DNA from: Globomyces pollinis-pini
Taxonomy: Eukaryota > Chytridiomycota > Chytridiomycetes > Rhizophydiales > Globomycetaceae
Direction: 5' to 3'
Assembly: GCA_025399215.1 (NCBI GenBank)
Contig: MU621256.1
Location: forward strand, 1 to 38,926
Length of the DNA: 38,926 bases
Under the pieces are notes generated by a model. The model was given only the letters and a program-made list of their open reading frames with translations, was not told where the DNA came from and made no database searches. Of the stretch, positions 1,083-37,300 are shown piece by piece. The stretch's first letter is position 1. Every line of letters starts with the position of its first letter. The translations under genes and the position numbers were made by a program.

Positions 1083-1333
1083 TTTTTCAATTTTGTACCA
1101 GTTGGTCTGCAGTCCTCACTCATAAATGCATTCTATGCAGTTTTTAGAATGATGCTGGTCCTGAATATATTTCATTTGTAGTTCGTCTCAATAATTAAAT
1201 ATATCATTATTGTTACTAACAAAATGAGTTCATGTCGTCTTCGATGTTCAGAACTTACTTTAATGATGAATTTTGTATGCAGTCAATTTTTATTACAAGT
1301 TTACAAATGAGAATATTACGATACCAGCTCTGT

Positions 1334-3423: not shown

Positions 3424-5045
3424 CTATTCATCATCAACCATGAATGAAAGACAGAATTTCTCTTTATCTAATAACACAAGAGACTTTCCATCCGGATTCC
3501 AATAAAATTTAACAACATTAAAATTAACTAATAAATTAATACGTTAAATGTGTACCAGCTGGAACCTCAATAGCATCACACCCATTTGACTTTTCCCATA
3601 GATATAGTAATCCATTTCCACAACAAAAAGCCAATTGGTTGGGATTGAGTGGATTCCATTCCACATGACTTATCGATTGTGTTTGTTGAATAACAGCTAG
3701 TTGTTTGAGCGTTGTCACATCCCATATCCATAATACCCTTGGCTGATTCTCTAAGTTGTTCAGTTGGAGAAAATATACCATTGCATGTCAAAAGTATATC
3801 AGCAGTACAGTTAAATAAAGTGCAGCCAACTCCCATTTTTGGGTTTGGCTTTTCTGGATCCACTTTGGTGATAGGAATCGAAAAAGGTGACATATGGTCT
3901 TCGTCTATTTTGATGATTAATATTATAAACTGGTTACATTGTAGTTTTGGTCGGGAAGATGTCCAAGACTTAATGCCACCGTAATTATTGACATTAGATA
4001 TATCAACTTCTTTATGTAATACCTTGGAATAAGAAACTTTGTGGACTTACAATATTTGGTAGACTAACTTGCTTGGGATGATTGAATTCAATCAGTGGCT
4101 TCCATGTATATGAGTTTAATAAACGACACTATAGTCAGGCATGAAACAATTTACTTTCTGGTCAAAAGATCCAATTGCCAGAAATTGGGCAGAAGGGGAC
4201 CATTTCACAGACATGATTCCCAACATATTATCATATGCTGAATAAGTCCCAGCAAGTCTACCATCTGGATGATATATGAAAATATTATAAGTAAGGAAAG
4301 ATTCCCATACGGCAATAAACCTTCCATCTGGAGACCACGCTAAATCAAACAGATCAGACGTTTGAATTGGAAATCTCTGTCGATCAAATATCAGTTCGAT
4401 TTACTTTTGTCAATGTCCAATCCGAGCAATCATAAATCGATATAAAGTCTTTTGATTCATAAGATTCTGCAACTGCAAAGTAAGCACCATCACTTCTAAA
4501 TTGAAATCCTACACATCAAATAATTCAAATTACCTTTATCACTAAACTTTGGATGCTGAATAAACACAGCAGATTTTGTAACCAAGGACCAGACTGTGAT
4601 TCGTAACTAACAATAATGAATGCAATACAGTGATTACCTATTATTAGTCCAATAATGAATTTGTAAACCTGAAATTCCGAAAACGACAAAATATGCCTCG
4701 AATCTACAATTAATTCGTTATAGAGAAAAGATCCATACCTGGTGCCCATACAACATTTACGCAGCCGACTAAACCTTCATCGATCTTTGCAGTCCAATTT
4801 TGATCTTTCAAAGACCAAACTTGAAAACACTTTAAACGAAAAGAAGCAACCAAGATCAGTTCTGAATCCTGAGACCATTCAATAGCCTGAATATTATCAG
4901 CACAATTAAATAAGTGTAAGATATCTAATGAATGAGCATCTCGAATGACAAGTCTTTGATTGATTCCAATTGCAATCGATTCCCCGTCCGGTGCAAATTT
5001 ACAAAGATTTCCCGTTTGTTTATAAATTTCTGTAAAATCTGCCAT
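3424..5045 (-). CDS. WRAP73: WD-repeat protein WRAP73/WDR8
   Basis: Ten exons: 4739-5045, 4669-4703, 4534-4606, 4405-4508, 4155-4376, 4051-4128, 3938-4022, 3779-3904, 3556-3750 and 3424-3527. The joined frame is 1329 nt, 442 residues, close to human WRAP73 (about 460). Recognisable blocks are LCKFAPDGESIAIGINQRLV, SLKDQNWTAKIDEG, TYSAYDNMLGI, KPNPKMGVG and VLWIWDVTTLKQLAVIQQ. WRAP73 homologues are beta-propeller proteins of the centrosome or spindle pole body; fission yeast Wdr8 works with Msd1 and the kinesin-14 Pkl1 to anchor minus ends. Eight introns are 25-35 nt; the second (4607-4668) is 62 nt and reads as two 31-nt introns back to back. The start is 54 bp from the divergent RWDD1-like gene. 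Confidence 0.92.
4607..4668 (-). other. Double intron: two abutting 31-nt GT-AG units in WRAP73
   Basis: On the minus strand the first unit is 4638-4668 and the second 4607-4637. Each starts GT, ends AG and is exactly 31 nt; the junction is AG|GT. Both contain ATTCATTATTG, suggesting one duplicated from the other. Removing all 62 nt restores the WRAP73 frame (EFQ then LRITVWSL). Confidence 0.75.
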
Positions 5046-10247: not shown

Positions 10248-10319
10248 CTCTCCAACTGGGAATCGAACCCAGGTCATCCGCGTGACAGGCGGAGATACTA
10301 ACCACTATACTATTGAAGA
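10248..10319 (-). tRNA. tRNA-Asp(GTC)
   Basis: 72-nt cloverleaf on the minus strand: acceptor TCTTCAA pairs with TTGGAGA, anticodon stem TCCGC/GCGGA around loop CTGTCAC (anticodon GTC), T-arm CTGGG-TTCGATT-CCCAG. No intron. First of three tRNAs in a row; only its 3' end survives in the left arm. Confidence 0.95.
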
Positions 10320-10322
10320 CCT

Positions 10323-10394
10323 CTCCGAATCCGGGAATCGAACCCGGGCCGCCTCGGTGAAAGCGAGGAATCCTAACCACTGGACTAATTCGGA
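10323..10394 (-). tRNA. tRNA-Glu(TTC)
   Basis: 72-nt cloverleaf: acceptor TCCGAAT/ATTCGGA, anticodon stem CCTCG/CGAGG with loop CTTTCAC (anticodon TTC), T-arm CCGGG-TTCGATT-CCCGG. All stems pair. Lies 3 bp from tRNA-Asp; absent from the left arm. Confidence 0.95.
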
Positions 10395-10398
10395 CACG

Positions 10399-10469
10399 TG
10401 CGCCAGCCCGGAATTGAACCGGGGGCTCATCGATGGCAACGATGAATTTTACCACTAAACCACTGGCGC
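10399..10469 (-). tRNA. tRNA-Gly(GCC)
   Basis: 71-nt cloverleaf: acceptor GCGCCAG/CTGGCGC, anticodon stem CATCG/CGATG with loop TTGCCAT (anticodon GCC), T-arm CCCGG-TTCAATT-CCGGG. Lies 4 bp from tRNA-Glu. Its left-arm partner at 773-843 has lost two stem pairs. Confidence 0.95.
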
Positions 10470-13815: not shown

Positions 13816-14225
13816 TAGAATCAAGGAAAAGTGAATAGGTTAGATGTTTCCCCTTCTTAATGGATTCTTTTATACACATCCAATGTGGCTTTTTCAATGC
13901 TTTTGGTTGATTGCTTTTTGCTTTCAAAGGACGCGAAGCAACCAAGCACATTGATGAGTTCATTAATATCAGGAAGCCATGTTAGTACAGTGATGAATAT
14001 ATACTATAAAGTTCTGTGGTACATAAAATTTATCTCTTCATTTAATACCAATACAATACGCGCACCTTTCCTTAGTGTACTCATCCGATAACAAGACTAG
14101 AATTTGATGTTTCTGAATGCGCGAAAGCAAGAAAATTCATTCATTTAAGGAGAGTTCAAAGCAGTCCGTTGCTTCATTTAGTGCTCGTTTTCTTCTCAAA
14201 AAGGAAACTCAATTTTTTTGACATA
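13816..14225. other. Intergenic region between micro-gene F and serine hydrolase gene
   Basis: 410 bp containing the copy F promoter on one side and the serine hydrolase promoter on the other. The 68-codon ORF at 13885-14091 overlaps the copy F TATA box region and is not accepted. Confidence 0.5.
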
Positions 14226-16247
14226 ATGCAATTTTTACTAGGATTTCTTGTAGGAAATGTACTCGGTAAGGGTGCCCTTAGCTGGGAATCGAAATTATCA
14301 AACTGGACAAGTAGATTCAATGAACTGGCAGATATGAAAGGCACTGATGCTTATTCTGCAACATTCTTCAAGCTCAATGATAATAGCCAAACGTTGGTCA
14401 AGTTTCAAAATGGATCTTGCTATGATTTGAATGGAAATATCAAGTCTTCTCAGACTGATCAAACCTTGTATCGATGGGCGAGTGTGAGTAAAATGTATGC
14501 GACAACAGCTCTATTTCAGCTGATTGAAGATGGAGTTCTTAGTACTTCTGATCTTGTTGTGGACCATCTACCTTGGTTAGCTAATCAATTGAAGAATCAT
14601 CCATTAACCGTCCATGATCTACTTCATCATACAGTGGGATTGGATGAGAATATGTTTGGATCTTTTTGGCCCTTTCCTGCTAAAAATGTATCGTCAAAAT
14701 CGGTAGTAGAGGAACTATGGACAGACTTTACAGCACCCAATGGTATCGCTGGAGGTCCTTCATACTCTAATATTGGAATGACTATTTTGGGATCGATTAT
14801 TGAAGAGAAAACAAATCTCAATCTAGGTGATTATTTACAGAAACATGTCTATGCACCTCTAAACATTACTCATAATGGCTTCCCGTATGAAATTGTCCAA
14901 CGAGGGAAAATGGATGATTTATGCTATTGCGCAGAATCAAATCAATATGAACCATATGATATCCCTGCTTACTCTTCAGGAGGAATGATCTCAACTACAG
15001 ATGATGTAGCCAAATTCTTTATTGCACTGTTGCAAAATGGCCAATCACTTTTCAAGAAACCAACCACATCTGAAGAATTTCGAAAAGCTCCATGGTACGT
15101 TAAATATTTCGGACCAAATGGATATCGTAATGGTTGGGAGTTTGAAACATACAAAGGTGTTGAAATGTTCACAAAAGGTGGAAACTTGATGGGCTTTCAT
15201 AGTAAAGCATGGATAATTCCTGAGTTCAATGAAGGTGGAGTATTTGTATCTACGAGCACTGATGATTATCGGCTCCGAGATAGTGCTGTGCAAGCTTTTA
15301 TGGATTTATTACACCCCAACCTATCATCAGATACTCGTTTGCCGCATCTTCCAATTTCACACCACTGGAATGTCAGCTCGTCAAAAATTGAAGGATCCTA
15401 CAGTAATCTGAGAAATGTCTACAAAGGGTTAAGTCGTATTTTCTCTCTTCCCGCTTCCTCATCTCTTACGTTTAAGGTGAATAACACATTGGGATCATTA
15501 GATCTGCTGCAGCATGGTCAAATCGTAAATTATTTTCCAATACAAGTTGATTCACACCAACCCAATAATATGGTAGTCTATCAAGCTCTGTATGCTGGAA
15601 AAGTCAAAACATTAACAGCAGTGTTTGATGGGTCATATAGTGATGACGCTACATCCATATCATACATCGGAATTGATGGAACATCAACGTTCGTTCCAAT
15701 CCTATTTTTGGATAAACCGTGGGTGTGCTATCTCATGTTAACCTTGGAATTTATGTCAATCTTAGTCTCAGCCTTGTTAGGAATATATAGCATCAAATAC
15801 TTTCAGGCCAAGTTTGTTCGAAGTCGATACATGGCAGTTGCTGGTGACGATGCTTTGGCCGAATTAGAAGATAATGCTGAACTCAATCCCGAGTTCATCT
15901 CTTATGCATCTTTGTTATGGACTGGAATTAACATTTTTCAACTGTTTAATGCCGCTTTTGGGGTCTTCATTCTTTTTGTTGGGTCTATCATTATTGGAAT
16001 GTACACAATTAACCCTTTCCGGTCAAATCCAATTGTTTTGTTGACTCTTTTCGTAAGTGTGAATTTGCTGTATTCTTTCGGTGCCATTCTATTAGTTTGT
16101 TGTATCATCGCTTACTTTGCATTGAAAGATTCTACCGAAAAAGTATGTCCTATCCAAATCACCTTATGGCTTTGCTTTGTTGCTTTCCATATTCTCGGAT
16201 TGATTCAAACCATCCACTTAAATTGGCTTTCGTTCCATTTCTGGTAG
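14226..16247 (+). CDS. Beta-lactamase-fold serine hydrolase with C-terminal membrane domain (copy 1)
   Basis: A 673-residue intronless protein. It starts MQFLLGFLVGNVLG, a short signal-like segment matching the paralogue at 26750. The hydrolase domain shows S86-V-S-K89 (SxxK, nucleophile and base), Y180-S-N182 (YxN) and TKGGN near 317 in place of KTG, the three motifs of class C beta-lactamase/DD-peptidase-type hydrolases (PF00144). The last 170 residues hold about four hydrophobic helices, so the catalytic domain should face the lumen or outside. The substrate is unknown; eukaryotic relatives include LACTB-type proteases and esterases. An upstream in-frame ATG at 14169 is not conserved. No introns in an intron-rich genome suggests acquisition or retroposition. 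Confidence 0.85.
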   Translation: MQFLLGFLVGNVLGKGALSWESKLSNWTSRFNELADMKGTDAYSATFFKLNDNSQTLVKFQNGSCYDLNGNIKSSQTDQTLYRWASVSKMYATTALFQLIEDGVLSTSDLVVDHLPWLANQLKNHPLTVHDLLHHTVGLDENMFGSFWPFPAKNVSSKSVVEELWTDFTAPNGIAGGPSYSNIGMTILGSIIEEKTNLNLGDYLQKHVYAPLNITHNGFPYEIVQRGKMDDLCYCAESNQYEPYDIPAYSSGGMISTTDDVAKFFIALLQNGQSLFKKPTTSEEFRKAPWYVKYFGPNGYRNGWEFETYKGVEMFTKGGNLMGFHSKAWIIPEFNEGGVFVSTSTDDYRLRDSAVQAFMDLLHPNLSSDTRLPHLPISHHWNVSSSKIEGSYSNLRNVYKGLSRIFSLPASSSLTFKVNNTLGSLDLLQHGQIVNYFPIQVDSHQPNNMVVYQALYAGKVKTLTAVFDGSYSDDATSISYIGIDGTSTFVPILFLDKPWVCYLMLTLEFMSILVSALLGIYSIKYFQAKFVRSRYMAVAGDDALAELEDNAELNPEFISYASLLWTGINIFQLFNAAFGVFILFVGSIIIGMYTINPFRSNPIVLLTLFVSVNLLYSFGAILLVCCIIAYFALKDSTEKVCPIQITLWLCFVAFHILGLIQTIHLNWLSFHFW

Positions 16248-16496
16248 GTTAGTGGTTCATTAATAAAAGTCTTTTGCTACTTATATTTCCCAGAGAATCA
16301 TGAACCAAAATTCAACATAAACACGAAACTTTCTGATGTATTCTTTTTAAATTGTTTGGATTTCTTATCTTCAGTCAAGGATTAAAGAAATTCAGATCAA
16401 TAACAACTCATTAATGACTAAATAATCTTAGAGGAGATCGCACAGAGTTTGTATTACAAATATGAATCGAATTGGTTAAATTTGGTTTGAATGAAC

Positions 16497-26449: not shown

Positions 26450-26749
26450 GAACCATTACATTTCTGAAGAGTGATCAGTGCTTTACAGCGCTTTTCTAGT
26501 AAACCCACGGATACACTGTCACACTTGAAGCCCTTTTTTATATGATTGAGTTTTTTAACGCAGCAGGGTAAAGGATTTGGGTTCAACATCATCACATGTA
26601 AACGATTCCAAAACGAATAATGAATGCATTCGTTTTGGGCAGTTGAAAATTATGAACCGTTGCTTTTTCAACGCTTTTTTAGCTTTACGCATTGATCGAT
26701 GTTACACAAATGTTTCTTATAAGGACCATACAATGTGGAGTAAATATCA
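26450..26749. promoter_or_regulatory. Divergent promoter region with 11-bp inverted repeat
   Basis: Lies between the aminotransferase-like gene and serine hydrolase copy 2. A perfect inverted repeat CCAAAACGAAT (26608-26618) / ATTCGTTTTGG (26628-26638) has a 9-nt centre and resembles a dimer-binding operator. A TATA-like TATAAAAAA lies on the minus strand near 26535-26543. No gene fits here; the ORF at 26577-26765 is rejected. Confidence 0.45.
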
Positions 26750-28756
26750 ATGCAATTTTTACTAGGATTTCTTGCAGGAAGTGTACTCGGCAAGGGTTCT
26801 CATAATTGGGAATCGAAATTATCAAACTGGACAAGCAGATTCAATGAACTGGCAGATATGAAAGGCACTGATGCTTATTCTGCAACATTCTTCAAACTCA
26901 ATGGTGATAGTCAAACGTTGGTCAAGTTTCAAAATGGATCTTGCTATGATTTGAATGGAAATATCAAGTCTTCTCAGACTGATCAAACCTTGTATCGATG
27001 GGCGAGTGTCAGTAAAATGTATGCGACAACAGCTCTATTTCAACTGATTGAAGATGGGGTACTTGCTACTTCTGATCTTGTTGTGGACCATCTACCTTGG
27101 TTAGCCAATCAATTGAAGAATCATCCATTAACTGTACATGATCTACTGCATCACACAGTGGGATTGGATGAGAATATGTTTGGATCTTTCGATGCATTTC
27201 CGGCTCAGAATTTATCACAACGATACGTTGTTGAAGATAAATGGACTGCAATCACGGCCCCTAATGGTATCGCTGGAGGTCCTGCATACTCTAATATTGG
27301 AATGACTATTTTGGGATCCCTCATTGAAGAGAAAGCAAATCTCAATCTAGGTGATTATTTACAGAAACATATCTATGCACCTCTAAACATTACTCATAAT
27401 GGTTTCCCGTATGAAATTGTCAAACAAGGGAAAATGGATGATCTATGCTATTGCACAGAATCTAGCCAATATGAGCCATATGATGTTCTTGACTACTCTT
27501 CGGGAGCAGTAATCTCAACTACAGATGATGTAGCCAAATTCTTTATTGCACTGTTACAGAATGGCCAATCACTTTTCAAGAAACCAACCACATCTGAAGA
27601 ATTTCGCAAAGCTCCATGGTACGCAGAGTATTTCGGACCTAAAGGATTTCGTAATGGTTGGGAGTTTGAAACATACAAAGGTGTTGAAATGTTCACAAAA
27701 GGTGGAAACTTGATGGGTTTTCAAAGCAAAGCATGGATTATTCCCGAATTCAATGAAGGGGGAGTATTTGTATCCACTAGTACTGACGAGCTTGGGCTCC
27801 GAGACAACGCTGTACAAGCATTTATGGAATTACTACACCCTGATTTACAATCTGATACTACTTTGCCTCACCTTCCAATCACGGACGAGTTGAAGGAAGT
27901 TACGACCAAAATTACAGGAGTATATAGCAGTTTACGAAGTGTTTACAAAGGTTTAAGTCGTGTTTTGAGCCTGCCTGCTGATAGGCCACTGATCCTTCAA
28001 TTTAACTCCACTGTAGGGTCTTTGGATTTAATCAAAGCTGGAGAGGCAACGAATTATTTCCCAGTCAAGATTGATAAACATCAGCCTGATAACATGATGA
28101 TCTACCAAGCTGTTACTGATGGAAGGTTGAAAACATTGACGGCAGTATTTGATGGACCTTTGAAGGACGCTGCTTCTTCAATATCTTATATTGTGGTTAA
28201 TGGTGGTACTTCATTCATTCCAGTTCGATTTTTGGATCAACCTTGGGTGTGCTACCTTATGCTGATTTTTGAATTTTTGTCAATAGTAGCTTCAGCAGTG
28301 CTAGGATTTTACAGTATTAAATATTTCCGCGGAAACGGTGGTCATGGAAACTATCAATCGATTCCAGATGGAGATGGTTTGGCGGAATTTGGACATTCCG
28401 AAGATAATTCGTATTCACCTTTATTATGGACTGGGATAAATATTTTACAGTTGGTGAATCTCACGGTTGGAACATTGATTCTTGTTGTTGCATCTGTTCT
28501 TATTGGAATGTATTCAATCAACCCTTTCCAAGAGAATCCAATTATTTTACTGTCATTATTTGTATCCTTCAACATCATGTACACAATTGGTGCGTTCCTT
28601 TTGGCCTTGTGTGTTCCAGTGTACTTTGTATTGAAGAACTCAAGTGAAAAGGTGTGTCCAATTGAGATTGCGGTGTGGGTATGTTTTGTTTCCTTCCATA
28701 TTATTGGATTCATTCAAACTAATCATTTGAATTGGTTTTCATTCCATTTCTGGTAG
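26750..28756 (+). CDS. Beta-lactamase-fold serine hydrolase with C-terminal membrane domain (copy 2)
   Basis: 668 residues, intronless, a paralogue of 14226-16247 in the same orientation 12.5 kb away. It keeps S86-V-S-K89, Y180-S-N182 and TKGGN at 316-320. The first 350 residues are nearly identical in places, including at nucleotide level around 26870-27180. The middle domain (about 370-500) and the cytoplasmic loop between membrane helices differ most. About four C-terminal helices follow, ending LNWFSFHFW as in copy 1. Both copies look intact, so both are likely functional, perhaps with different regulation or partners. Confidence 0.85.
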   Translation: MQFLLGFLAGSVLGKGSHNWESKLSNWTSRFNELADMKGTDAYSATFFKLNGDSQTLVKFQNGSCYDLNGNIKSSQTDQTLYRWASVSKMYATTALFQLIEDGVLATSDLVVDHLPWLANQLKNHPLTVHDLLHHTVGLDENMFGSFDAFPAQNLSQRYVVEDKWTAITAPNGIAGGPAYSNIGMTILGSLIEEKANLNLGDYLQKHIYAPLNITHNGFPYEIVKQGKMDDLCYCTESSQYEPYDVLDYSSGAVISTTDDVAKFFIALLQNGQSLFKKPTTSEEFRKAPWYAEYFGPKGFRNGWEFETYKGVEMFTKGGNLMGFQSKAWIIPEFNEGGVFVSTSTDELGLRDNAVQAFMELLHPDLQSDTTLPHLPITDELKEVTTKITGVYSSLRSVYKGLSRVLSLPADRPLILQFNSTVGSLDLIKAGEATNYFPVKIDKHQPDNMMIYQAVTDGRLKTLTAVFDGPLKDAASSISYIVVNGGTSFIPVRFLDQPWVCYLMLIFEFLSIVASAVLGFYSIKYFRGNGGHGNYQSIPDGDGLAEFGHSEDNSYSPLLWTGINILQLVNLTVGTLILVVASVLIGMYSINPFQENPIILLSLFVSFNIMYTIGAFLLALCVPVYFVLKNSSEKVCPIEIAVWVCFVSFHIIGFIQTNHLNWFSFHFW

Positions 28757-28986
28757 TTAGATTAACTCCAATAAAACATATTTTCTTGACATGCGATTCA
28801 AATTATCTCGTCAATATTTCCATTAATACTAGAACAATCAACTACAGGAAACGGCTATAACAAGAATGATAAAGTACCACAAATTGTTTAGCTCATGGGC
28901 TAAACTGAACTGAGCTGAGCTTAGCTTCGTATGGCTTACAAAAGCTCACACCACATTTGTCATTTTCTTTCGAAATTTTCGAAAAA

Positions 28987-30939
28987 ATGTCAGTCTCAGA
29001 ACTAAATGTAGACATGCAATCTCGAACCGCGAATTATTCTCTCGATATGGAAGATGATTTCGAAAAAGATGTAAAGGAAGAAGTAGCGCTCGTAAGTGTA
29101 CATTGTGAAAGAACGTTTGAAGAAATCAAGAAAGGAAGGAGGAAAGGACAGCAAGTAGTTCATTTTAAATGTTTATATTGCCCGGCTAAATATCAAGGAC
29201 CTGCTACCAGTGCATTTAATCGCCATCTTCGTGAAAAACATCCAGAGGCATTTAATCGCCATCTTCGTGAAAAACATCCAGAGGTGGATAATAAACCCGA
29301 TCATTCAAAACGAGCGAGTACCTATTCAAAAGAAAGTTTCCTACAGTGCTTGACTGACTTAATTGTTACTCAGGATCTACCATTTCAGCTCGTAGAATCA
29401 CCCGCATTTAGGGAGTTCATTGACGCATTGCGTCCGTCGACTGAAGTTGTAACAGTGGATGAGTTGGAGATAAACGTCATGAACAGATTTGAGAAAATGA
29501 AGAATCAGATGAAGAATTTTTGGACGTCTATAGACTCCCGAATATCATTCACCACTGAAATTTGGACTGGCCCAAATGATATGACCTACTTGGCCATTAC
29601 AGCTCATTGGATATCTTCAGAATTTATTATGCAACACCTTCTAATGGACTTTATTGAATTGCATGGCAGCAATAGTGGAGTGGACATCGAAAAGGCCTTT
29701 TCTAAGTCATTGATAGAAAATGATGTATTTTCGAAGAAATTGGCAATCACTTTAGATAATTCTTACAGCAACGATACTTTCATTTCGGCCTTTATGAAAC
29801 GAGATCCTTCATTTGACAAGGAGCATCAAGTAAGATGTTTCGGACATATTGTAAACCAAATTGCTCAAGATGCATTAGAGTTAGTGGATGATAAACTGTC
29901 TTATATTCGGAATTACATCGAGTCAATTATTCATAGTCCGAAACGACTGGAACAATTACAAGACTTTTATGAATCAATGGGAAAAGATTTCGAAAATCCA
30001 ACATTGGATGTTAAGACAGAATGGAATTCAACAACTGACATGATGATTGGATTGCTGCAGTTGAAGGATGGGTTAAGTTCCATGATGAAATCAATATTTC
30101 ATGAAGCATCCGAAAAATCTTCAAGCAAGCGGCGCAAAAGCAAAAATGTGACTATTGTTGATAATGAAGAGGGATCATTCGTTCAGATTACCGATCAGCA
30201 TTGGAAAAACATCTCTGATATTCTTGCGGTAATAGAGCCGCTCAAGATTAGCACCAAAACGCTGTCTGAAGATAATTTTACTCCTTTGAATACGGCGGTC
30301 ATAGCTTATGCAGGTTTAGTGAAGCATCTGGAGCAATTTTCGGGTCATTCAGACTTAAAGGCTATTGCTTCTAAAGCTGCGCTTAAGAAGTTAGCCAAGT
30401 ATTACAACATTTCTTCAGAAATTTGTTCCATTCCAACCGTTTTAGATCCAAGGCTTAAATTAAACTTCCACAAGGCCGCCAAGGACTTATCAGTAGCCAA
30501 TCCTGAAGAAATTCGGTCTTACGTAACGAAATTCTACAACGAAGATTACGCACCTTCTGATGCTATCACTTCTCAAAATTCATCACCCGTGGAACCAAGT
30601 ATGCTCGATGCGTTTTACCAGCATGACAGCCCTTCTCATAACCAAACAGAAATTGAAATCTATCTCTCCGAGCCTGTGGTTAACCATCATTCAAACTTTA
30701 AAGTGTTAGATTATTGGAAAATCAATTCTGCCCGATTTCCAAACTTGTCAAGAATGGCAAGAGATTACCTGGCAGTTCCAGGAATATCAACTCCATCTGA
30801 ATGGGCATTCAACGGAGGAAAACAATCGATAGCTAATCATCACCACAATCTAAGTGGTCAGACCATTAAGGCGTGTGTGTTGCTCAGACACTGGATGCGA
30901 CATTGGGATGATGCCGTCCAACCTCACCAAGTGATCTAG
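28987..30939 (+). CDS. hAT-family transposase with BED zinc finger
   Basis: A 650-residue intronless ORF. A BED-type finger starts with C62-x2-C65 and continues to His residues at 80 and 85. The RNaseH-like core has ISFTTEIWTGPNDMTYLAITAHW, LAITLDNSYSNDT, and RCFGHIVNQIAQDAL (the hAT Cys/His motif). The C-terminal dimerisation block has YWKINSARFPNLSRMARDYL and TPSEWAF. The usual first catalytic Asp (TTDxWT) is Glu here (E191); D257 and the late Glu remain. A perfect 36-bp tandem duplication (29212-29247 and 29248-29283) repeats AFNRHLREKHPE at the end of the finger. I could not find terminal inverted repeats, so the mobile unit is undefined; it may be immobile or domesticated. Confidence 0.85.
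   Translation: MSVSELNVDMQSRTANYSLDMEDDFEKDVKEEVALVSVHCERTFEEIKKGRRKGQQVVHFKCLYCPAKYQGPATSAFNRHLREKHPEAFNRHLREKHPEVDNKPDHSKRASTYSKESFLQCLTDLIVTQDLPFQLVESPAFREFIDALRPSTEVVTVDELEINVMNRFEKMKNQMKNFWTSIDSRISFTTEIWTGPNDMTYLAITAHWISSEFIMQHLLMDFIELHGSNSGVDIEKAFSKSLIENDVFSKKLAITLDNSYSNDTFISAFMKRDPSFDKEHQVRCFGHIVNQIAQDALELVDDKLSYIRNYIESIIHSPKRLEQLQDFYESMGKDFENPTLDVKTEWNSTTDMMIGLLQLKDGLSSMMKSIFHEASEKSSSKRRKSKNVTIVDNEEGSFVQITDQHWKNISDILAVIEPLKISTKTLSEDNFTPLNTAVIAYAGLVKHLEQFSGHSDLKAIASKAALKKLAKYYNISSEICSIPTVLDPRLKLNFHKAAKDLSVANPEEIRSYVTKFYNEDYAPSDAITSQNSSPVEPSMLDAFYQHDSPSHNQTEIEIYLSEPVVNHHSNFKVLDYWKINSARFPNLSRMARDYLAVPGISTPSEWAFNGGKQSIANHHHNLSGQTIKACVLLRHWMRHWDDAVQPHQVI
29212..29283 (+). repeat. Perfect 36-bp tandem duplication inside the BED finger
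   Basis: 29212-29247 and 29248-29283 are identical, so the finger's His-containing helix is present twice, in frame. Identity at every base suggests a recent event. Confidence 0.9.
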
Positions 30940-31348: not shown

Positions 31349-32676
31349 ATGGAAACAAAGGAAATGAATGATATCACAGTACTGAGAGGAGGTCGAGTTT
31401 ATGATCCAGAGGATATTGGGTTGAAGGTATTAAACGATAACCATTCATTCATCACCTGACTGACTGACTATCCTTTACCATGATATATGCTTATAATATA
31501 GGATATTGTGATTGTGGGCACACAGATTTCTAAAGTAGTGGATTCACTATCAGCAATTGAATTGGCAAAATTGAAATATTGCGGTGTGGTGGTAGAAATA
31601 ATAGATTGTACGGGTAAATGGATCACACCGGGGTTTATTGACTCCCATGTACATATCATTGGTGGTGGAGGTGAAATGGGGTTTCATAGTCGTACGCCTG
31701 AAGCAAATACAAGTGAATTGGTTGTATCTGGGTTGACCACTGTGATTGGATTGTTGGGAACGGACGTGGAATGTCGGAGTTTAGAAACACTTTTGGCCAA
31801 AGTATACGGTTTAAGACATGATGGAATAGGTGCGTACATGTTGATTGGTGGGTATCGAGTACCAGGTGTTACCCTCACTGGTACCATTATGAAAGATATT
31901 ATGTTGATTGAGCCAGTAAAGTTATCTATCGTAACATAAGGTTATTGGTGTAGGTGAAATAGCTCTCAATGATCATCGAGGAACCAACCCAACTATTGCA
32001 GATATCACACTTCTAGCAGCCGATTGTCGTGTAGGAGCCATGCTCTCAAACAAACATGGTATCGTACATGTACATATGGGAAAAGGTCATAAACGATTGC
32101 AAGATTTGAAAACTATCATCAAAGAGAGTGAAATTCCTATTCAACAATTCCATCCTACCCACTGTAACGAACGAGGTCCAGAACTATTAACGTAATAGTT
32201 GATATTTGATTTTTAGCGAGTGTTTAGAATGGCTAGATATGGGAGGATATGTAGATTTTACCGCGGATGATTACAAAAATGATAAACATAAATGTAGTGA
32301 TGTACTCGATCAATGGAAACAACAAAATCAAGTCTTAGATAAAGTAACGATATCTACCGACGCATATGGATCATTCCCACATTTCAATTCCAATAACGAA
32401 TTGGATGGGTATGGGGTTGGTTTACCAAATTCGATTCTGGAAACATTTAATTATTTACATACTCATTACAAATGGCGACCGGAGGAATTTTTGCCATTGG
32501 TGACGAGTCATGTTGCAGAGGTGTATGGGTTCAAAGAAAAAGGTTATGTACGGAAGGGATTTGATGCGGATCTATGTGTGCTAGATCCGGAATCATTCAC
32601 AGTTTCGTATCTGATGAATGGTGGGAAATGGTTGAAGAAATTGGATTGGATTAAGAAAGGAATGTTTGAGAAATAA
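31349..32676 (+). CDS. Isoaspartyl dipeptidase (IadA-like amidohydrolase, M38)
   Basis: Exons 31349-31426, 31502-31915, 31941-32191 and 32217-32676; 1203 nt, 400 residues (E. coli IadA 390). Motifs are GFIDSHVHIIGGGGEMG (first two metal His), RTPEANTSELVVSGLTTVIG, VIGVGEIALNDHR, VHMGKGHKRL, FHPTHCNERG and STDAYGS (final metal Asp), ending FDADLCVLD. The metal-bridging Lys region reads GVGEIA, the Glu-containing variant I recall from many bacterial relatives. The enzyme cleaves beta-aspartyl dipeptides from damaged protein. The family is mainly bacterial, so old gene transfer is possible, but three host-type introns (75, 25, 25 nt) show it is settled in. It ends 83 bp from the convergent LEM gene. 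Confidence 0.9.
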
Positions 32677-36135: not shown

Positions 36136-37300
36136 ATGAATCACATCCCTATCGAAATCATCCTAGTTATTATAGATTACTTACCATTGCCTGATTTGAA
36201 ATTTAGAACCTGTTTGGTGTCCAAATCATTTCATTCCTGTACATTTGAAATAATTAAAAAAAGGTTGGTTATGATTTGTTTATTCTAGGTTTCTCTATAA
36301 TGTATCTGATTATTAGGTTTGTTTCTCTGTCGTCTGATTTCTACCAGGTTTTCTACTCTTAATATATCTGATTTATAGGTAATGTGTTTCTAAATGAATT
36401 TACCATTTCAGGTTTTCCCAATCTCATTAATTCTTTAGGTATGAATTCATTACTGAAAAATATGACCAGGTATAATGCTATCCTACATTCAACCTAGGTA
36501 AACAACATACTCAACTCAACACAGACTACATCATTATACCACGCTTCTAAACGAACTAAATGTAAAGAGTACCCAAATGGATATACAAGAGATAATGAAT
36601 CCATTACTAGAATTGAACACGAATCAAAAGGTGATTGAAAAATCATTTAGTACAATGCTATTGGGCAGTTTTGAACGCGATTCTGATTCGTTAGTAACAG
36701 GCATTGAATTGACTTTGAATGGTATATATTGGATATTGTAATTCTATAGGTAGATCAAACATCGTTTTTAATCAAAAAAGGTTTTATCGTGTTGTTTGAT
36801 GGTAGGATATGATGTGGCCACAACCAGTCTCACATTCGTTCCAAGTGGAAATGCAGCATTTGGGATGTTTATCGACCATTTGGGGTAAATCATAAAATTC
36901 ATTCAAAACAATTAGATTTTTACCAATTACTAAATCTTATCCTTGGTCTGAATTTTCCTTTGAATCTGGTACAAACACACAATTCCGATTCTGGTTTTAC
37001 AAGGATAAAGATACATCAAAAACACCATTATCAATGTTCAAGGTGAATAATAATAAGGATATATTACCGATAAATTGTATGCCGTTGATTAAAGAACTTG
37101 GAAGATATCGAGTGTTACTTAAAGATGAGTTTGGAGTGATTGGATGCATTGAATATGAGATTAAATCGAATGACCAGATACCTGCTCCAGAGTTGATTGG
37201 GGAACAGCCAGCTGGGGATGTAATAGATCATACGATGATTGTTGGGGATATTACTCGAGTGTGTATTCATCCTAATGCTATCTTTGCAATACCATTATAA
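36136..37300 (+). CDS. F-box protein with tandem intron arrays
   Basis: Exons 36136-36263, 36525-36721, 36806-36884 and 36916-37300; 789 nt, 262 residues in frame. The N terminus MNHIPIEIILVIIDYLPLPD...FRTCLVSKSFHS is an F-box (about 2-40). The rest has no recognised domain; it is well folded in appearance, with segments such as LTFVPSGNAAFGMFIDHLG and CIEYEIKSND. The first gap (261 bp) is nine abutting GT-AG units, the second (84 bp) three; the third is a normal 31-nt intron. Reading into either array from the upstream exon meets a stop within the first unit. F-box proteins recruit substrates to SCF ubiquitin ligases. Confidence 0.75.
36264..36524 (+). repeat. Tandem array of nine intron-like units, zero-length exons
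   Basis: Units: 36264-36288 (25), 36289-36316 (28), 36317-36347 (31), 36348-36378 (31), 36379-36411 (33), 36412-36438 (27), 36439-36469 (31), 36470-36497 (28) and 36498-36524 (27). Each begins GT and ends AG, and each junction is AG|GT; the last joins exon 2. Sizes equal ordinary introns here. Units 2-4 share TCTGATT before the 3' end (branch-point-like) and look related; the others are diverged. Confidence 0.8.
36722..36805 (+). repeat. Tandem array of three intron-like units
   Basis: Units 36722-36749 (28), 36750-36780 (31) and 36781-36805 (25), each GT...AG with AG|GT junctions. Removal of all 84 nt joins codon G|GA in frame (LTLN-GYDVATT). Confidence 0.78.

Follow-up and report, generated by a model that had tools for sequence, protein, structure and literature searches.

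Can a single position in a gene hold not one intron but a row of complete introns with no exonic base between them? The question is raised by an F-box gene of Globomyces pollinis-pini, a chytrid of the order Rhizophydiales. It lies in the window, by which we mean the whole stretch of DNA analysed (38,926 nt, contig C167), and the original prediction was that the 261 nt between its first two exons consist of nine back-to-back GT...AG units, each the size of an ordinary intron of this genome, which could be spliced out one at a time through zero-length exons.

A nine-unit array and a three-unit array in an F-box gene

The stretch at 36264-36524 does divide into nine GT...AG units (25, 28, 31, 31, 33, 27, 31, 28 and 27 nt) with zero leftover bases, and the gene around it is organised as follows:

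36136..36263, plus strand: exon 1, F-box domain, open from the ATG at 36136
36264..36288, plus strand: array 1 unit 1, 25 nt, GT...AG, adjoins exon 1 and unit 2
36289..36316, plus strand: array 1 unit 2, 28 nt, GT...AG, branch-like CTGAT with its A 8 nt from the 3′ end
36317..36347, plus strand: array 1 unit 3, 31 nt, GT...AG
36348..36378, plus strand: array 1 unit 4, 31 nt, GT...AG, similarity score to unit 2 of 9.5
36379..36411, plus strand: array 1 unit 5, 33 nt, GT...AG
36412..36438, plus strand: array 1 unit 6, 27 nt, GT...AG
36439..36469, plus strand: array 1 unit 7, 31 nt, GT...AG
36470..36497, plus strand: array 1 unit 8, 28 nt, GT...AG
36498..36524, plus strand: array 1 unit 9, 27 nt, 3′ end taken from the gene model and not from an AGGT
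36525..36721, plus strand: exon 2, in frame with exons 1 and 3 after removal of both arrays, matches protein P0121 from residue 61
36722..36749, plus strand: array 2 unit 1, 28-nt intron
36750..36780, plus strand: array 2 unit 2, 31-nt intron, gives a stop if kept as exon
36781..36805, plus strand: array 2 unit 3, 25-nt intron
36806..36884, plus strand: exon 3, junction LTLN/GYDV found in P0121
36885..36915, plus strand: ordinary single intron, 31 nt
36916..37300, plus strand: exon 4 to the stop codon (gene model)

From the exon junction of array 1 onward AGGT occurs nine times, once at the junction itself and eight times internally. Over 20,000 dinucleotide-preserving shuffles the internal count averaged about 1 and never exceeded 6, and full tiling by units of 20-40 nt was obtained in none of the 20,000, in keeping with the expectation that chance would supply about one AGGT or fewer. 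Tandem Repeats Finder called no array at 36264-36524, where the units form no recognisable minisatellite. The identity of the host gene also stands, with Pfam PF00646 matching residues 3-35 of the spliced protein at 22.8 bits against a cut-off of 20.5. A TCTGATT common to units 2-4 had been read as a clue to local duplication. This fares less well: the word fits the ordinary branch-site motif, the A of CTGAT lying 8, 11 and 8 nt from the 3′ end (a branch motif 7-10 nt from the 3′ end is present in three of the nine units), although units 2 and 4 are alike and form the one pair among 36 in array 1 above the 99th percentile of between-array similarity.

The three-unit array at 36722-36805 was absent from the original prediction. 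Removal of both arrays and of the ordinary 31-nt intron yields a protein of 262 residues, and retention of any single unit, in 12 cases out of 12, gives a frameshift or an early stop. A 202-residue protein of Globomyces sp. JEL0801 (P0121) equals the spliced F-box protein from residue 61 to the end with one residue differing, and this agreement crosses the array 2 junction LTLN/GYDV. At the protein level, the P0121 model begins in exon 2, without the F-box exon that precedes array 1.

Ordinary introns and gene-finder counts

The genome scanned comprises 18.5 Mb in 459 contigs. A home-made gene finder was run on 264 kb of it (about 1.4%), namely the window plus the first 100 kb of each of contigs C1 and C2 (together 239 kb) and 25 kb of short loci chosen beforehand for AGGT chains. 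Of 584 introns called, 573 are 20-40 nt long, with a peak at 25-31 nt, confirming that the units have the size of the genome's ordinary introns. When zero-length exons earn no bonus, they account for 14 of the 415 internal exons in the 239 kb, against three of 1-10 nt and three of 11-20 nt; over all 264 kb the counts are 26, four and four. A flat prior on intron length leaves only two zero-length exons among 329; of the 420 introns that it calls, 19 are 41-74 nt long (six of them tiled) and 66 are 75 nt or longer, and it swallowed some short exons into long introns. The gene finder's count of zero-length exons depends on the length prior; the spacing of motifs does not.

With a bonus for arrays switched on, the 264 kb contain 28 arrays, many of the two-unit calls being weakly supported: 17 of two units, five of three, three of four, and one each of five, nine and ten. 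One two-unit call with a doubtful 105-nt piece was left out of later counts, leaving 27. A parser that forbids zero-length exons found two of 16 long introns to be tiled and missed the arrays of the window and of a kinase gene described below; we think that it took array units for mini-exons. Another predicted gene of the window also carries an array:

4607..4668, minus strand: two-unit array, 31 + 31 nt, called by the gene finder without the array bonus

Other features of the window

Three tRNA genes (Asp, Glu and Gly) stand in a row on the minus strand at 10248-10469. Two closely similar beta-lactamase-family genes (Pfam PF00144) occupy 14225-16385 and 26749-28680 and by eye reflect a local gene duplication. 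The second is followed by a hAT-family transposase gene (Pfam Dimer_Tnp_hAT) at about 28945-30939, to which the gene finder fused it; the resulting "long intron" at 28679-28944 was rejected as a product of that fusion. A perfect two-copy tandem repeat with a 36-bp unit, at 29212-29284, falls by eye in the zinc-finger part of the transposase.

Recurrence across the genome

A scan of the genome for further runs of GT...AG units had been proposed alongside the original prediction. A loose pattern of AGGT triples proved uninformative, returning 855 matches (406 + 449) against 1,703 (781 + 922) for its reversed control, presumably because the reversed word TGGA is simply commoner. A stricter pattern, TAGGTA, followed across spacings, took its place, and it needs no gene finder. 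In the 18.5 Mb, 308 TAGGTA pairs have a start-to-start spacing of 24-32 nt. Spacings of 38-46 nt and 11-19 nt yield 14 and 19 pairs, and a spacing of 80-88 nt, about three units, yields 54. The reversed word, commoner overall, stays level over the same classes (173, 139 and 197 pairs, and 147 at 80-88 nt). Chains of three TAGGTA junctions number 85, against seven for the reversed pattern. Such arrays recur across the genome.

Arrays in conserved genes

Two of these arrays interrupt genes in which the protein can be judged against solved structures. The larger has ten units and 289 nt and interrupts VPS24/CHMP3:

C4:30307-33543, minus strand: VPS24 locus (L024-L030), ten-unit array

With the array removed, VPS24 aligns without a gap across the junction to CHMP3 (PDB 3frt, which we take to be the human protein) and to orthologues from seven other chytrids; an eighth match, P0002, is a truncated model of this very gene. 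On C1, a CLK/LAMMER kinase gene is interrupted directly ahead of its HTDLKPEN motif by an array of five units and 138 nt. Once this array is taken out, the kinase too aligns to CLK2 (PDB 3nr9, presumably also human) with no gap at the junction. Eight array genes were compared with Pfam. In five of them (VPS24, the CLK kinase, a second kinase, a peptidase M48 and a WD-repeat protein) the array falls within a domain or repeat region, in two (the F-box protein and an asparaginase) it falls next to one, and the eighth showed no domain. The WD-repeat gene (C2:133327-137095, minus strand, L020-L022) holds two separate four-unit arrays, and a further four-unit array sits in a helicase gene that we call SEN1-like from a reading of its sequence. 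As judged from their predicted products, the conserved proteins imply that these arrays are removed in full.

Public gene models break at the arrays, which is of practical consequence: the deposited G. pollinis-pini VPS24 (P0002) is one case and P0121 may be another. P0002 is 100% identical to our VPS24 over the shared part (68% of the query) and starts inside the ten-unit array, its first 14 residues coming from array units and 69 true start residues being missing. Reading on from unit 7 to unit 8, and treating units 9 and 10 together as a single 59-nt intron, reproduces the model. A public protein search with the CLK kinase returned no Globomyces entry among the best 120 of 4,474 matches, a list from which the length filter may hide a truncated entry.

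Intron signals of the array units

As a class, the units have GT...AG ends, the intron length of the species and a branch motif, and so qualify as U2-type spliceosomal introns. In length they show no difference from single introns (KS p = 0.42). The YTRAY branch motif, its A placed 7-10 nt before the 3′ end, is carried by 28 of 62 units from ten arrays and by 240 of 526 single introns, while shuffled units give 4.3 (sd 2.0, maximum 11 over 2,000 shuffles); three of the ten arrays had been chosen using the splice profile of the gene finder. The other seven follow from AGGT spacing, apart from two end units set by the gene model, and in them the motif occurs in 25 of 51 units against 3.5 after shuffling, and in 18 of 42 against 2.8 when the array at C12:42083-42340 is left aside. 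The rate is uneven, from 7/9 in the C12 array and 6/10 in VPS24 to 0/4 in each of two arrays.

The donors of array units are weaker on average, a gap that is partly built in, given that the single introns were selected by a splice profile favouring A. In the arrays defined by AGGT, 17 of 51 units have T at position +3, compared with 44 of 526 single introns, and GTT donors make up 59% of the 17 non-first units of the two longest gene-parsed arrays (VPS24 and 36264-36524) against 8% of single introns. C at +3 occurs in neither group (0/51 and 0/526).

The units look mutually unrelated in nine of the ten arrays examined. With C12 set aside from the within-array pairs, members of one array resemble each other no more than they resemble members of other arrays (155 vs 1,700 pairs, p = 0.63), and of the 45 unit pairs in VPS24 one exceeds the 99th percentile for pairs between arrays. 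Selection on each unit would be expected to leave units that diverge yet keep their signals; recent insertion of unrelated introns would leave the same pattern.

Undivided longer introns

It had further been proposed that the spliceosome of this organism may be tuned to introns of about 25-35 nt, in which case a 261-nt stretch might be removable only stepwise. A strict limit of this kind fails because two undivided introns of more than 2.5 times the usual size are backed by homology:

31427..31501, plus strand: undivided intron of 75 nt in an isoaspartyl dipeptidase gene; a solved homologue aligns over the junction with no gap
C1 locus starting at 226417 (L012), bases 1241-1320, plus strand of the contig: undivided intron of 80 nt in a mitochondrial-type aconitase gene; here too a solved homologue aligns over the junction with no gap

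Neither contains an AG before its 3′ end. Altogether the gene finder called 11 undivided introns longer than 40 nt; besides these two, two contain runs of N, and for the other seven (97-520 nt, without N) a Pfam domain across the junction was found in none, the fusion product at 28679-28944 being one of the seven.

Probable mode of array removal

We consider it likely that the arrays are complete minimal introns lying end to end, separated by zero-length exons, removed unit by unit and arisen at least in part through tandem duplication. This reading is the best one because the units as a class carry the length, the GT and AG ends and the branch motif of independent introns. Each AG/GT junction would do double duty, closing one unit as its 3′ splice site and opening the following unit as its 5′ splice site. 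Cutting out one unit would leave the remaining junctions intact, and the array could be cleared either progressively from its 5′ end, as in recursive splicing, or without a fixed order, in each case through ordinary intron definition at a scale of about 29 nt. The original prediction of recursive splicing through zero-length exons therefore keeps its core, in that the arrays are real, lie inside genes, recur and consist of units that are intron-like as a class, while the idea that size forces the process falls away. Unit-by-unit removal is probably the main path and would be driven by proximity, not by an absolute limit.

The array could instead be one long intron, cut once from the first GT to the last AG, its inner AG/GT sites being unused relics of duplicated or inserted introns. 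One-step introns of 75 and 80 nt lend this some substance, as do the cut of the last two VPS24 units as a single 59-nt intron in the public model and the description of fission-yeast genes where two or four tandem AGGT duplicates lie within a single intron (PMC4974935). A single cut would, however, have to skip eight internal splice-site pairs in array 1 and many nearer sites in arrays generally, unlike the 75- and 80-nt introns with no AG before their 3′ ends. Supported arrays reach 289 nt, while none of the seven other long candidates of 97-520 nt has a Pfam domain across its junction, and both points make unit-wise removal the likelier main path. Relics should, moreover, lose the intron length and branch motif that the diverged units hold at the rate of single introns. 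We regard a single cut as unlikely.

Similarly doubtful is mixed removal, in which donors and downstream acceptors combine freely, each step takes out a random number of units (one, two or several) and only the end product matters. The geometry of an array gives the same mRNA by every path, donor strength varies along arrays and introns of up to 80 nt can be spliced; against this, the branch motifs and length control of individual units would then be only loosely selected. That the arrays are chance or minisatellite-like low-complexity DNA of no meaning for splicing, or a stretch that is really exonic or intergenic, is highly improbable and already contradicted by the shuffles, the excess at unit spacing, the lack of a tandem-repeat call at the window array and the gapless conserved proteins over two arrays, even though one chain (C2:36466-36580) resembles a coding tandem repeat by eye and the loose triple pattern is no commoner than its reversed control.

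Origin of the arrays

The array at C12:42083-42340 has near-identical neighbours, half of its unit pairs (18 of 36) being more alike than the 99th percentile of pairs drawn from different arrays, and near-identical chains are seen by eye in C68, C152, C165, C168 and C194. For C12 whole-intron tandem duplication appears clear from the likeness of the units, and the similar chains would be read in the same way. Such duplication may account for at least part of array birth: a tandem copy of an intron would be harmless because the copy is itself spliced, and the copies would afterwards diverge except in their splicing signals.

The exon preceding an array ends in AG in 15 of 27 cases, against 171 of 526 for single introns (p = 0.014), and in eight of 11 for arrays of three or more units (p = 0.008), counts that are small and belong to one of six tests. 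This weak preference would fit duplication by AG microhomology or AG...AG misalignment, but is no more than suggestive.

Transposition of introns between loci was considered and rejected: no near-identical copies between loci were found among 526 single introns and 62 units, where seven of 126,437 length-matched pairs pass a loose similarity cut (two inside C12, one between a C10 unit and a single intron, four between single introns) and the one identical pair in the sample lies inside C12. Array 1 unit 5, the one unit searched genome-wide, has no second copy at up to three mismatches.

Unit-by-unit removal, its order and the way in which diverged arrays are born are what we infer from these patterns. 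A broader proposition, to which we give even chances, is that introns multiply in place throughout this genome: introns of about 29 nt would copy tandemly at AG/GT, and a spliceosome adapted to tiny introns would clear the copies singly, so that they persist. Some genes would then need ten or more splicing events per exon junction, and purifying selection would act on every unit with no decay into long introns. This would amount to an undescribed route of intron gain and to recursive splicing at short range.

Comparison with known systems

Zero-length exons, or ratchet points, are described for long introns of Drosophila and for rat tropomyosin (PMC2773006, PMC5126111, PMC8605326). The arrays resemble ratchet-point recursive splicing in that a 3′ splice site abuts a 5′ splice site (AG/GT) and the donor is recreated after removal; juxtaposed AG/GT sites occur inside one intervening sequence at the eight internal junctions of 36264-36524. 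Drosophila ratchet points, however, subdivide very long introns, whereas the 261 nt here are made up of nine full introns, each of about 29 nt, and arrays occur genome-wide, and of the Drosophila consensus (Y)nNCAG/GTAAGT the GTAAGT is found at none of the eight internal junctions of array 1. The 261-nt array accordingly differs from the Drosophila form, a very long intron with CAG/GTAAGT, on both counts. Recursive splicing has reportedly also been described in yeast, by Lopez and Seraphin in 2000. In Drosophila the process is said to need a cryptic RS-exon (PMC8605326); here the next donor is 25-33 nt away, and a unit and an RS-exon are indistinguishable by sequence alone.

Stwintrons of ascomycete fungi are two spliceosomal introns at one gene position removed by consecutive reactions (PMC8469720), and the arrays share with them the occupation of one position by several spliceosomal introns. 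Stwintrons are nested, the inner intron interrupting a splice signal of the outer one (PMC8469720, PMC12403724), whereas the units here stand side by side at AG/GT, each with its own complete GT and AG.

In the classic tandem-duplication model, duplication of an exonic AGGT segment creates one intron (PMC4974935), with ATP2A1, potato RdRp and fission yeast as examples. AGGT-bounded tandem copies, near-identical between neighbours at C12:42083-42340, recall that model; the difference is that what is multiplied here appears to be an entire pre-existing intron, copied in place to at most ten units in the arrays read, most of them diverged. The fission-yeast introns that span tandem AGGT duplicates (PMC4974935) are the nearest precedent found. 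Introners and introner-like elements also multiply introns within one genome (PMC9860276, PMC4457414), but theirs are near-identical copies at many loci, a pattern not seen here among 526 single introns and 62 units or, for one unit, genome-wide.

No report of comparable arrays was present among the matches listed in the literature searched, mostly papers outside subscription journals and exclusive of bioRxiv preprints, and we rate the arrays as a variant of recursive, zero-length-exon splicing not encountered before in that literature. They offer a direct test of how a spliceosome chooses between competing sites, of intron multiplication in place and of the upkeep of non-adaptive complexity, and they do so at many places of a small genome, each step being short enough to follow on a single RNA molecule. 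Studies of recursive splicing have treated it as a means of coping with very long introns; in these arrays the same geometry appears near the minimum intron size.
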